Shown piece after piece: positions 5,602 through 49,537 of a stretch of DNA of 64,000 bases; the first letter of the stretch is position 1, and every line of letters begins with the position of its first letter. The stretch is from Flavobacterium johnsoniae UW101 (GTDB lineage Bacteria > Bacteroidota > Bacteroidia > Flavobacteriales > Flavobacteriaceae), in the NCBI RefSeq assembly GCF_000016645.1, contig NC_009441.1, positions 2,170,001-2,234,000 on the forward strand, written 5' to 3'. The notes under the pieces are model-generated. The model saw nothing but the letters and a program-made list of their open reading frames with translations, made no database searches and was not told the DNA's origin. A program made the position numbers and the translations under genes.

Positions 5602-8148
5602 TTATAAGCTGTATTTCAATGTAATTCCGTAAGTTCTTTGGTCTCCCAATACACCAGCATATTGTCCTGCGTTACCACCTGCAGGCAATAATTGTTCGTA
5701 GTAATCTTTGTTTAAAAGGTTACGACCCCAGAAGTGAACAGACAAACCTTGTGATGCGCGGAAACCTAAGCGGGCATTAAAAATTGCATAACCCTGAACG
5801 ACTAAATATTTTGAAGCCGAAGGGCTTGATGAAAATTCAGAACGTGCATAAGAATCAACAGCTAAGAAAACTTTTCCTGCGTTTCCAAAAAATCTTGCAT
5901 TATCAGAAAGCTCACCGCCTAATGATCCTGCCCATCTTGAAGCACCCGGAAGATTAGTTCCTGAAACATCTTTGAAAGATACTGGAGCTCCTGTTTCTTC
6001 TAATGGCAGCGGTGCATTTGTAAATTTCACATAAGTACCATCAGTATAAGTTACAGCACCGTTTATTGTTAAGTTTGGACTTATAACAAAACTTCCGTCT
6101 ACTTCTACACCTTGTACACGTACTTTATCAGCATTGGCGAGATAACCACGGTTTACACCCAATTCAGCTGCCTGAACGTTAGTTTGAAAATCTTTAATAT
6201 CGGTTTTAAATAATGCAATATTGAAAATTGAGTTTCTAAAAGGAGAAGTTTTTACTCCCACTTCATAATGGTATACTTTCTCAGGCTTAATTACAGCAAG
6301 ATCAAGTAACGGCTGACCAGCAGAGTTAGTTGGAAGTCCGGCAACATTTACACCAACTGGTTTGTAGCTTTTTGCAAAAGTTCCGTAAGCATTGATTTTG
6401 TCTGAAGCTTTAAAAGTAACTGTAATGTTTCCAGAAAAGTCAGTATTGTCAGTACTTGAATCAAAAGCCTGATCAGAATAAACCAGTTTTTTCAAAGCCA
6501 ATAACTGTGGATCTGTTGTTTGTAAACCTCCGTATGTTGTACGTGCGTAATGCGCATCTTTTTTATCAAAATTATATCTTAAACCAGGTAAAATGTGTAA
6601 ACGATCTGTAATTGCCCAGTCAATTTGTCCAAATACAGCAGCACTCGATGCTCTGATTCTTGCATCAGTTTTAATTCCATATCCTTCAAAAAGCCCCGGT
6701 GTTTTCCATAAGTTACTTGTTGTGCTTTGAGAAAATCTCCATTGTGCATTTCCAGATTCTTCAGTTCCATCAGTCTGTGATGTCTGGTCAATAAAAAATA
6801 CTCCGGCAACACCGCTTATTTTAGAAGTAATCTGTCCTGCGTAACGAACCTCTTGTGTAATTTGTGTTTGTCTTGTAGGGTTTTGAGATTTAGCCAAAAC
6901 TTGTAATCCTGTAAAATCTCGGTCATTTGACGGATCCCAGTTCCAAAAACGCCATGCTGTAGTAGAAGTAAGAGTTCCGCCTCCAATTTTTGTATCAACA
7001 TTTAAAGAGAAACCTCCCATGTCCTGATTAGAACGCCAAGGTGTATCCTGATCAATTTTACGGTCAAAAGCATTTAAACTTGGTAATTGATAATTTAAAT
7101 CGGCAATAATGGCGTCAAACTGGCGGTAAGCTGCTCTTTGTGTTGGAGCAACACCAGCTACAACCTGAGCATATCCGTCTGGGCGCTGCGTTGTAATATC
7201 AGCAGCAAAAATAACATTTGTATTTACAGTTGGAGTCCAAAGCAATTGTCCTCTAATTCCCTGATTATTTAAGGTGTTTGTAGATCTTCCAGTTGCAATA
7301 TTGTCAACTAAACCGTCACGTGAAGTCCCTGAAAACGATAATCTACCTGCCACTTTTTTACCTAGAGCACCTGTAACAGAAGCTTTAGCCTGTAAGAAAG
7401 AATAATTTCCATAGCTAACCTCAAAATCAGCACCAGAAGTAAAACTTGGTTTGCGGGTAGTAATATTGAAAGCTCCCGAAGTTGTATTTTTTCCAAATAA
7501 AGAACCTTGAGGGCCGCGTAAAACCTCGATTTGTTCTACATCAATAAAATCTAGAGTAGTGGCAGCCGGACGAGCATAGTAAACACCATCAACATAAAAA
7601 CCAACACCCGGATCGATTCCGTCGTTTGTTAACCCGAAAGGCGAACCTAAGCTTCGAATATTAATACCTGTATTTCTTGGGTTTGAAGAATAAAGCTGTA
7701 CAGAAGGAACTAATTCTTTAATACGGTTTACATTAAAAGCTCCGGTTTGTTCTGCTTGTTTTCCTGTAATTACAGAAATAGCGATTGGCACATCCTGAAC
7801 TTTTTCGATTCTTCTTCTTGAAGAAACGACAACTTCAATAAGTTCGTTTTCTTCTTTAAGTGCAACCTGAAGCGGATTTGCTGGAATTGCTGTAAGTTCG
7901 ATTTCAGCAGTTGTATATCCTACATACTGAATTAAAAGAGTTAATGGAAGTCTTCCTTTAGAATCGATTATAAATTTACCGCTGTTATCAGTAACAGCAC
8001 TATTTGTAGTTCCTTTAACTACTACGTTTACAGCTTCTAAAGGAACATTTTCACTTGTTGTAACTATACCTTCAATATTTTGAGCGAATGAGATAGAGAA
8101 GGTTAAAAAGAATAATATTGTAAAGATATTTTGTATTGATGTTTTCAT
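5602..8148 (-). CDS. TonB-dependent outer-membrane receptor
   Basis: An 848-residue outer-membrane receptor. A signal peptide (1-22, cut after FAQ) leads to a carboxypeptidase-regulatory-like domain (about 23-97), then the plug (about 105-235, with R-I-E-K-V-Q-D-V-P-I-A-I-S-V and V-L-R-G-P-Q-G-S-L-F-G-K-N) and a beta-barrel ending in the aromatic-rich YGITLKYSL strand. Such receptors import scarce ligands using TonB energy. It has no SusD partner, so it is not a SusC-type glycan importer. The ligand is unknown. The nearby Rrf2 regulator and the Cys-ending leader ORF at 8201-8308 suggest a link to sulfur or cysteine supply (inference). Confidence 0.92.
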   Translation of the reverse strand: MKTSIQNIFTILFFLTFSISFAQNIEGIVTTSENVPLEAVNVVVKGTTNSAVTDNSGKFIIDSKGRLPLTLLIQYVGYTTAEIELTAIPANPLQVALKEENELIEVVVSSRRRIEKVQDVPIAISVITGKQAEQTGAFNVNRIKELVPSVQLYSSNPRNTGINIRSLGSPFGLTNDGIDPGVGFYVDGVYYARPAATTLDFIDVEQIEVLRGPQGSLFGKNTTSGAFNITTRKPSFTSGADFEVSYGNYSFLQAKASVTGALGKKVAGRLSFSGTSRDGLVDNIATGRSTNTLNNQGIRGQLLWTPTVNTNVIFAADITTQRPDGYAQVVAGVAPTQRAAYRQFDAIIADLNYQLPSLNAFDRKIDQDTPWRSNQDMGGFSLNVDTKIGGGTLTSTTAWRFWNWDPSNDRDFTGLQVLAKSQNPTRQTQITQEVRYAGQITSKISGVAGVFFIDQTSQTDGTEESGNAQWRFSQSTTSNLWKTPGLFEGYGIKTDARIRASSAAVFGQIDWAITDRLHILPGLRYNFDKKDAHYARTTYGGLQTTDPQLLALKKLVYSDQAFDSSTDNTDFSGNITVTFKASDKINAYGTFAKSYKPVGVNVAGLPTNSAGQPLLDLAVIKPEKVYHYEVGVKTSPFRNSIFNIALFKTDIKDFQTNVQAAELGVNRGYLANADKVRVQGVEVDGSFVISPNLTINGAVTYTDGTYVKFTNAPLPLEETGAPVSFKDVSGTNLPGASRWAGSLGGELSDNARFFGNAGKVFLAVDSYARSEFSSSPSASKYLVVQGYAIFNARLGFRASQGLSVHFWGRNLLNKDYYEQLLPAGGNAGQYAGVLGDQRTYGITLKYSL

Positions 8149-8159
8149 TTTTATATTAA

Positions 8160-8211
8160 GTATATGTGATTAGTAGAATTTAAAATAAATTTTTTTTAAA
8201 TCAACATATAC
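8160..8211 (-). promoter_or_regulatory. Candidate translation-control stem before the receptor start
   Basis: GTATATGT at 8160-8167 and ACATATAC at 8204-8211 form a perfect 8-bp inverted repeat. In the RNA one arm lies in the final Cys-Ile-Cys codons of the leader ORF, and the other ends 12 bases before the receptor ATG. Pairing would crowd the initiation region; a ribosome stalled on the Cys codons would prevent it. The sequence is AT-rich, so a chance match is possible. Confidence 0.45.
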
Positions 8212-8308
8212 ACATCATAGATGAATTTCTTTTTACAGAAGCAGAAAGCTTTGTTTGGTTATTTTGCAAAAGTTTTGTGACACCTGATGAACTAAAATGT
8301 ACTTTCAT
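8201..8308 (-). CDS. Putative cysteine-responsive leader peptide
   Basis: A 35-residue ORF, too short for usual gene calling, between a TAnnTTTG promoter (8347-8354) and the TonB receptor gene (start 8148). The peptide is Ser/Lys-rich and ends RNSSMMCIC-stop, so two Met and two Cys codons sit immediately before the stop. Leader peptides with clustered codons of the regulating amino acid are established for attenuation in other bacteria. Its placement, the facing Rrf2 gene and the downstream inverted repeat fit a cysteine-sensing leader. Translation is not demonstrated. The alternative is an unconstrained ORF in an untranslated leader. Confidence 0.55.
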   Translation of the reverse strand: MKVHFSSSGVTKLLQNNQTKLSASVKRNSSMMCIC

Positions 8309-8346
8309 GTTAAAAATTTTGTAAATGGTTAGTTAAATATTTTATG

Positions 8347-8354
8347 CAAATATA
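8347..8354 (-). promoter_or_regulatory. -7 promoter element of the leader/TonB receptor transcript
   Basis: The minus strand reads TATATTTG, an exact TAnnTTTG match, 39 bases before the leader ORF start. No -33 TTG lies at normal spacing. The place where it should be is occupied by the imperfect inverted repeat at 8361-8384, which would fit a promoter needing an activator. Confidence 0.6.
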
Positions 8355-8360
8355 AATATT

Positions 8361-8384
8361 AATTCTATCGATTTACTAGGAATT
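8361..8384. promoter_or_regulatory. Candidate Rrf2 operator
   Basis: The imperfect inverted repeat AATTC-TA ... TAGGAATT lies directly upstream of the -7 element and between the Rrf2 gene and the leader ORF. AT-rich inverted repeats with AATTC/GAATT halves are plausible sites for Rrf2 proteins. The assignment rests on position and symmetry only. Confidence 0.3.
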
Positions 8385-8397
8385 AGAAAATATTTTT

Positions 8398-8811
8398 TTA
8401 TTTTTTTACTAATGAGGCGATTGTGATGCCTTCCATTGCCTTTAAAGTTTTGTCTCTAATAAGCATTAAACCGTGACGCAGACTGCATTCAGACTCGGTT
8501 TTGCAATCAGAACAAGGCTCGTAAAAATTTAAAGAAGCACATGGCAAAAGTGCAATTGCACCGTCAAATAATCGGTGAATTTCTGCCAGAGTGATGTCAT
8601 TTTTGGATTTTATCAAATAGTATCCGCCAAATTTTCCCTGCTTACTGCTTACAAAACGTCCTCGTTTTAGATCTAATAGAATCTGTTCTAAAAACTTTTT
8701 AGGAATATTAGCGCCATCAGCAATTTCCACAGTTCTGGAAATGTGATTTTCGTCTTGTTCTGCTAAATAAAGTAAGGCCTTAAGGGCGTATTTTGCTTTA
8801 TGTGATAACAT
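8398..8811 (-). CDS. Rrf2 family transcriptional regulator
   Basis: A 137-residue Rrf2-type regulator. The N-terminal winged helix starts MLSHKAKYALKALLYLA and includes the G-G-Y-Y-L wing (about 62-66). The C-terminal part has Cys91, Cys100, Cys103 and Cys109. In Rrf2 members such as IscR three clustered Cys bind an Fe-S cluster, while CymR-type members sense cysteine status through a partner. The extra cysteine makes cluster or thiol sensing plausible here. It is transcribed toward the TonB receptor gene, 89 bases before the leader ORF, and is the obvious candidate to control that promoter. Confidence 0.9.
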   Translation of the reverse strand: MLSHKAKYALKALLYLAEQDENHISRTVEIADGANIPKKFLEQILLDLKRGRFVSSKQGKFGGYYLIKSKNDITLAEIHRLFDGAIALLPCASLNFYEPCSDCKTESECSLRHGLMLIRDKTLKAMEGITIASLVKK

Positions 8812-49450: not shown

Positions 49451-49537
49451 ACCACCTTTAGTCCCGCTATCCGCTTGTATCTTTTCTTCCCTAAAGAAGG
49501 GAAAAAAAGGATACCGCTTCTATCGGGGCTGGACTAG
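49451..49537. repeat. Imperfect palindromic element
   Basis: TAGTCCCGC...GCTTGTATC on the left and GGATACCGCTTC...GGACTA on the right face each other around a small TTCCC/GGGAA stem (49487-49503). No ORF of note. It looks like another dispersed palindromic repeat. Confidence 0.5.

Follow-up and report, generated by a model that had tools for sequence, protein, structure and literature searches.

Cysteine-responsive translational attenuation of a sulfur-linked TonB-dependent receptor, combined with Rrf2-type transcriptional control, is the reading we favor for the region upstream of the receptor gene at 5602..8148 of the window, with a probability of roughly 0.7. The window is the whole 64-kb stretch of Flavobacterium johnsoniae UW101 DNA that was analyzed. 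A short leader ORF with Cys codons at its very end precedes the receptor gene throughout the Flavobacterium loci read, the RNA of those codons is complementary to a conserved block just upstream of the receptor ATG, and the leader promoter carries the window's best match to a palindrome found at sulfate-assimilation promoters.

Organization of the locus

All elements of the locus lie on the minus strand, in the order Rrf2 gene (8811-8398), promoter box (8354-8347), leader ORF (8308-8201) and receptor gene (from 8148):

8398..8811, minus strand: Rrf2-family regulator of 137 aa (TIGR00738, PF02082), encoded immediately before the leader and carrying four Cys in the C-terminal half
8361..8383, minus strand: predicted operator of Rrf2 type, ATTCCTAGTAAATCGATAGAATT, close to the -7 box on its upstream side (sulfate-assimilation promoter matrix)
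8347..8354, minus strand: predicted Bacteroidota-type -7 promoter box TATATTTG of the leader transcript (sequence)
8201..8308, minus strand: leader ORF MKVHFSSSGVTKLLQNNQTKLSASVKRNSSMMCIC, 35 codons, ending Met-Met-Cys-Ile-Cys-stop (ORF translation and conservation)
8204..8212, minus strand: putative regulatory codons Cys (8212-8210), Ile (8209-8207) and Cys (8206-8204) (Cys counts, codon changes)
8199..8211, minus strand: predicted 5' pairing arm GTATATGTTGATT, made of the Cys codons minus their first base, the stop codon and two further bases
8160..8171, minus strand: predicted 3' pairing arm AATCACATATAC
8149..8181, minus strand: strongly conserved block AAATTCTACTAATCACATATACTTAATATAAAA before the receptor ATG, its left half resembling an operator half-site
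5602..8148, minus strand: TonB-dependent receptor of 848 aa with carboxypeptidase-like domain, plug and barrel (PF13715, PF07715, PF00593), predicted to import a sulfur compound

The first-pass annotation had described the box, the 35-codon ORF and an 8-bp perfect inverted repeat, and these recur exactly as it gave them, the repeat joining GTATATGT (8204-8211) to ACATATAC (8160-8167). The repeat does stand before the receptor ATG (8148-8146), but at a distance of 11 bases (8149-8159) rather than the 12 originally counted. It extends to 12 pairs plus one bulged base when the full arms are taken. Of 101 loci compared, 98 have the -7 box at a distance of 120-330 nt before the receptor ATG.

No terminator-like site is found within 8050-8420. 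The leader ORF of the window matches no NCBIfam or Pfam model, and none of ten leaders tried matches an NCBIfam model. Curated Rfam models at gathering score likewise give no match in the leader region; their sole match in the window is a Flavo-1 RNA (RF01705, 68.3 bits) at 49456-49534 on the minus strand. Further Flavo-1 copies occur no more than a few hundred bases from SAM riboswitches (L171, L173, L174, L179) or near MetH, although the SAM riboswitch listed for L173 is at the opposite end of the stretch.

Conservation of the leader across Flavobacterium

A receptor scan of genome contigs gave 478 matches, of which the best 80 are 80 Flavobacterium loci, and each of these best 80 has, ahead of the receptor, a short ORF with Cys close to the end. 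At one of them, L088, 133 nt separate the Cys-ending ORF from the ATG assigned as the receptor start; the ATG that follows the conserved block there is not in frame with the receptor ORF, whose matched start is further downstream. Together with 18 further loci (eight of which share a start region with one of the 80), three more and the window, the genus set amounts to 102 loci, and a Cys-ending leader ORF precedes the orthologous receptor in all 102 loci read. The last eight leader residues include C-x-C in 95 of them, and the remaining seven (L026, L057, L080, L125, L130, L175 and L176) each retain at least one Cys.

Scripted measurement covered 101 of 103 loci, L088 and the other-family locus L141 having dropped out. 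Leaders are 28-38 codons long, with one outlier of 54, and are separated from the receptor by 45-59 nt. The last eight codons hold two or more Cys in 97 of these 101 leaders and a single Cys in 4, while Cys elsewhere amounts to three in total. Of the 102 loci that could be checked (the contig of L024 is too short), 100 encode an Rrf2 C-terminal signature upstream in the same orientation; the exceptions are L138 and L141, the latter from another family. The first-pass annotation had named lack of conservation of the Cys codons or of the pairing in orthologs as an outcome that would count against it; in the comparison as run, each proposed element is conserved.

A covariance model of the element finds one match in each of 46 of 150 genus genomes. 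At family level it matches 2 of 299 genomes, both Flavobacterium. The filters used were stricter ones that may miss weak copies; the Flavobacterium form of the element looks limited to the genus. Within the F. johnsoniae genome, a search for ORF ends of the form Cys-Met/Ile-Cys plus a TRR codon returns 31 matches, and among the 30 read a leader of this kind near a gene start is found at the window alone. The start-region block has one exact site in that genome, its other matches being no more frequent than in the control. At L097 in the same genome (near C1:1360668), a longer ORF is preceded at 213 nt by a 23-codon ORF whose last residues are CSYCIC and which may be a further Cys-rich leader.

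Coding signature and selection on the Cys codons

The leader looks like a protein-coding sequence. The receptor tree implies about 1029 substitutions in the body of the leader, a count that misalignment of diverged bodies may inflate, and 5.3% of possible single changes create stops, so that about 54 stops would be expected; none is observed among 101 ORFs, which were chosen as open, yet every genus locus had one. The leader reads as coding because it stays free of stops despite this expectation. Its body is only weakly constrained, with a pN/pS of 0.67 in close pairs.

The end of the leader behaves differently from the body, whose codons change at all positions. On the receptor tree, the second Cys codon accumulates 1, 0 and 16 changes at its three positions and the first Cys codon 2, 1 and 4; the second codon keeps its amino acid, and at the first the paired silent base is kept as well. 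A separate count of codon states on the tree misread loci with extra Cys codons, and its change counts are rough. Among the properties of a cysteine-type attenuator, a co-directional short upstream ORF is present, as are selected, clustered Cys codons, and translation of the ORF is predicted.

Pairing between the leader end and the receptor start region

The block before the receptor ATG, AAATTCTACTAATYACATATACTTAATATAAAA, is strongly conserved, with slight variants in 102 of 102 loci. RNAalifold, run without a structure constraint, predicts pairing between this block and the end of the leader in which the second Cys codon's silent base stays unpaired. The resulting 11-pair register was scored on an alignment of 46 sequences (48 diverse ones picked from 84 distinct sequences, minus L026 and L176, whose ends differ), where 94.5% of 506 cells are paired, against 18-63% for control partners slid along by 1 to 3 columns. 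For the full set of 84 distinct sequences the figures are 95.8% of 924 cells and 16-64%; in this count L026 forms 10 of 11 pairs and L176 and L138 form 8 each.

Compensatory change is modest evidence beside an arm complementarity that is strong and conserved in these alignments. Among the 46 sequences there are 12 double-change cells, a count reached by 0 of 500 shuffles, which ignore relatedness. Eleven of the 12 fall at one pair that alternates between G-C and A-U and that shows A-C mismatches in L036, L076 and L175. Two pairs show a double change, a number matched by 38 of 500 shuffles that likewise ignore relatedness. The covariation of the two arms that the first-pass annotation had asked for is thin in the strict sense; conservation of the pairing itself supports the proposal. 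A longer, 14-pair register, which in many species joins as many as 15 bases and in many loci is favored by energy, lacks any double change and performs no better than shuffled sequences; the 11-pair register is preferred.

Taken alone, the window is not a striking case. Its pairing, at -11.1 kcal/mol, is among the weaker ones (relatives reach about -17), 14 of 200 shuffled partners pair equally well with its leader end, and the fold of its 236-nt leader is unremarkable in stability (z -0.07 against shuffles). More than 10 of 200 shuffled partners pair equally well in 33 of 92 loci. The early caution that an 8-bp match might be chance is therefore fair for the window by itself, which proves little, and loses its force once orthologs are compared: because the ORF, the block and the pair cells are conserved across loci, the pairing is very probably more than chance.

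Folding models agree with a closing role for the leader end. The block (-26 to -13) has a mean unpaired probability of 0.196 with the leader end free and 0.818 with it covered, and it is less open with the end free in 101 of 101 loci modeled. Replacing the end with a piece of the leader body gives 0.707, the real end being lower in 100 of 100 comparisons, and a shuffled end gives 0.607.

The Rrf2 regulator, its predicted operator and the sulfur link

The window's Rrf2 protein scores 102.1 bits against TIGR00738 (cut-off 73.3) and 112.6 bits against PF02082. A paralog 50% identical to it is encoded inside the genome's own sulfate-assimilation cluster, with a Cys/Met-type PLP enzyme, two TauE-type permeases, CysH, CysD, CysN, sulfite reductase, uroporphyrin methyltransferase, a CysG-like protein and MetH; these were named by eye from sequence, except CysH and CysD, which match PF01507.

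A matrix for a 23-bp palindrome was built from 20 distinct sites at cysH and TauE promoters in 15 of 23 genus loci; the other 8 cysH loci had no pattern match, and 7 further off-promoter matches were removed by eye. Its top score in the window, 14.8 bits, falls at 8361-8383 on the leader promoter, and the next best site scores 9.0. Scores of at least 12 bits occur at 92 of 103 receptor loci, compared with 2 of 638706 other positions.

Two-layer sulfur control had already been proposed from the window alone, and the prediction gains new support from the shared palindrome, from the Rrf2 paralog in the genome's own cluster and from the receptor's place in such a cluster in another family (below). 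By inference, these features tie the receptor to sulfur uptake. The evidence that concerns its cargo is one of association, namely the operator match and the sulfate-assimilation clusters of another family. Relatives of the receptor with solved structures are mostly siderophore, heme and metallophore receptors, each of low similarity, and they give no certain indication of cargo. Directly behind the receptor in another genome (L176:4728-8274) are genes for a PstS-type binding protein, two permeases and an ATPase (by eye), possibly an inner-membrane partner in that genome.

Receptor orthologs beyond Flavobacterium

In genus g82, which belongs to another family, a receptor ortholog 56% identical to that of the window lies in a co-directional sulfate-assimilation cluster, read by eye in L230 as CysH-CysD-CysN-CysK-CobA-CysJ-CysI-Rrf2-leader-receptor-CysG/TauE; L180, of the same genus, has the same order from CobA onward. 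The leaders there end SSCRKLF (L230, one Cys) and SSCCQLF (L180).

Of 392 phylum genomes, 27 have the receptor family, and ten of these belong to other orders. Four of those ten loci have cysteine-run leaders, CCCCCCC in L265, CCCC in L266 and L268 and CCMC in L267, and L265 and L267 lie in sulfate-assimilation clusters. Reading of the same ten loci found no Cys leader in L260, L261, L263, L264 and L269, and L262 is ambiguous.

Family f18 has the receptor in 71 of 344 genomes, and 67 loci were analyzed (two fragments and L262 and L263 were set apart). A short upstream ORF with CC or CxC is found in 40 of the 67, against 10 of 67 on the opposite strand, and is absent from 27. CC within the last 14 codons is more discriminating, occurring in 32 of 67 loci compared with 2 on the opposite strand, a shuffled mean of 0.7 and 4 of 30 far-upstream regions. 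Operator scores of at least 10 bits occur in 57 of 67 loci against 0 of 30 far upstream. Two separate operator-like palindromes lie upstream of the receptor in 21 of the 67 (L270-L336), some flanking the leader. The f18 motif (L271-L329) is often Arg-Cys-Cys (24 of 40 by eye), which may point to an influence of the peptide or of codon context in addition to cysteine supply.

No Cys leader was seen in g90, in ten g59 loci read, in one of two g104 loci or in L207. The g104 receptors (L231, L232) lie near sufA, sufB, sufC, sufD and a TonB protein (by eye), one of them with a short ORF ending RMRMHC; in g59, the ortholog at L217 (G066) has an internal TAA stop. For seven leaders outside Flavobacterium, covering the leader makes little difference to how open the start region (-30 to +12) is predicted to be, with a change of no more than 0.14, and the output step may therefore differ there.

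A wider claim, slightly favored over its negation, is that the Bacteroidota own a cysteine-sensing leader class on one sulfur-regulon TonB receptor family. Some families would carry bare Cys runs (CC to CCCCCCC), and in Flavobacterium the Cys codons would double as an antisense arm that closes the receptor start, atop an Rrf2-type sulfur operator.

Proposed mechanism

When cysteine is ample, the ribosome would complete the leader and depart, and pairing of the freed Cys-codon arm with the block 12-23 bases before the ATG would close the receptor start region in a form of translational attenuation. When cysteinyl-tRNA is scarce, the ribosome would stall on the Cys codons and cover the arm; the start region would stay open and receptor synthesis would probably rise. 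The Rrf2-type regulator would set transcription at the leader promoter and the leader would set translation, both according to sulfur status. Bacteroidota ribosomes largely work without Shine-Dalgarno pairing, and for that reason start-site control in this phylum should lean on structure.

If this mechanism holds, nutrient control of outer-membrane import would gain a direct sensor in the charging of cysteine tRNA, and a receptor family whose cargo is unreadable from sequence would gain a testable sulfur assignment. An operator and a regulon would also be predicted for the Rrf2 proteins of this phylum.

Alternative explanations

The most serious competitor to this reading takes the block before the receptor ATG for a second, worn Rrf2 operator that acts on DNA rather than as an RNA arm, with the leader acting otherwise or being a remnant. 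We regard this as improbable. In its favor, the block's left half, TTCTACTAAT, is identical to the operator half-site of some loci (L137, for example), the block scores 5.9 bits in the window and 10 bits or more at 20 of the 103 loci, and leader and receptor may in other families be separated by an additional operator-like palindrome. Yet the TAG that the right half-site needs occurs in 0 of 102 blocks, and no block among 103 reaches 12 bits, whereas 92 upstream operators do. The spacers differ too, since that of the block is nearly invariant except at two C/T positions and is complementary to the Cys codons, whereas that of the upstream operator varies. Lower still stands the prospect that leader ribosomes govern mRNA decay or Rho-dependent termination instead of receptor initiation, with cysteine still the signal. 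Gaps in other families, where they are often longer and closing of the start region is not predicted, would suit such an output; in the Flavobacterium models, by contrast, the leader end closes the start region at every one of the 101 loci, and the spacer from leader to receptor is short and AU-rich.

It is quite unlikely that the leader is a metal-sensing nascent peptide whose Met/Cys motif binds copper, in the manner of CruR and BfrG of Bordetella. MMCMC is rich in potential copper ligands, and CruR sets a precedent for leader control of a TonB receptor (PMC9426467). Against this, the motif is at the extreme C-terminus and would still be within the ribosome, the leader matches neither DUF2946 nor another family, the operator and gene neighborhood indicate sulfur, and the motif of other orders frequently consists of Cys alone, from CC to CCCCCCC. 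A chance arrangement in AT-rich DNA that regulates nothing would suit the unremarkable window sequence and is very hard to reconcile with conservation at 102 of 102 loci, avoidance of stops, selection on the Cys codons and the slid-partner controls. Cysteine-responsive attenuation of the receptor remains the preferred reading.

Relation to known systems

CymR is the Rrf2-family cysteine regulator of Firmicutes. The window protein resembles it in family and in its predicted sulfur regulon, but scores 50.8 bits against the CymR equivalog model NF047409, below the cut-off of 195. Closer in phylogeny, Flavobacterium psychrophilum has leader-peptide attenuation upstream of amino-acid biosynthesis operons, acting on transcriptional elongation (PMC9723704). 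That case shares the bacterial family and the leader-peptide logic, and the available portion of the source names no Cys leader of a TonB receptor (PMC9723704).

The first-pass annotation knew of no described example in a TonB receptor gene, which is too broad: in Bordetella, the upstream ORF of bfrG encodes CruR (DUF2946), which controls a TonB-dependent receptor and in which cysteines matter (PMC9426467). CruR has 145 residues with CXXC and RAPP motifs, senses copper and acts through Rho (PMC9426467). The leader described here differs in having 35 codons, no CXXC or RAPP motif, a predicted cysteine signal and a predicted translational output. Mycobacterial polycysteine attenuators are cited in PMC9094748. 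What stands of the novelty claim is narrower, in that a search of open-license literature found no description of a Bacteroidota sulfur leader of this kind.

Cysteine attenuation is already known from mycobacteria, and leader control of a TonB receptor is already known for copper. The mycobacterial systems are reportedly leaderless short-ORF attenuators with polycysteine tracts, in which ribosomes stalled in the Cys tract block a structure that closes the ribosome-binding site. The element described here resembles them in placing a short ORF with Cys codons upstream, there of cysteine-metabolism genes. It differs from them in belonging to another phylum, in a predicted promoter that suggests it is not leaderless, and in Cys codons that themselves form one arm of the predicted structure. 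Its target also differs, being an outer-membrane TonB receptor whose leader is combined with a predicted Rrf2-type operator.
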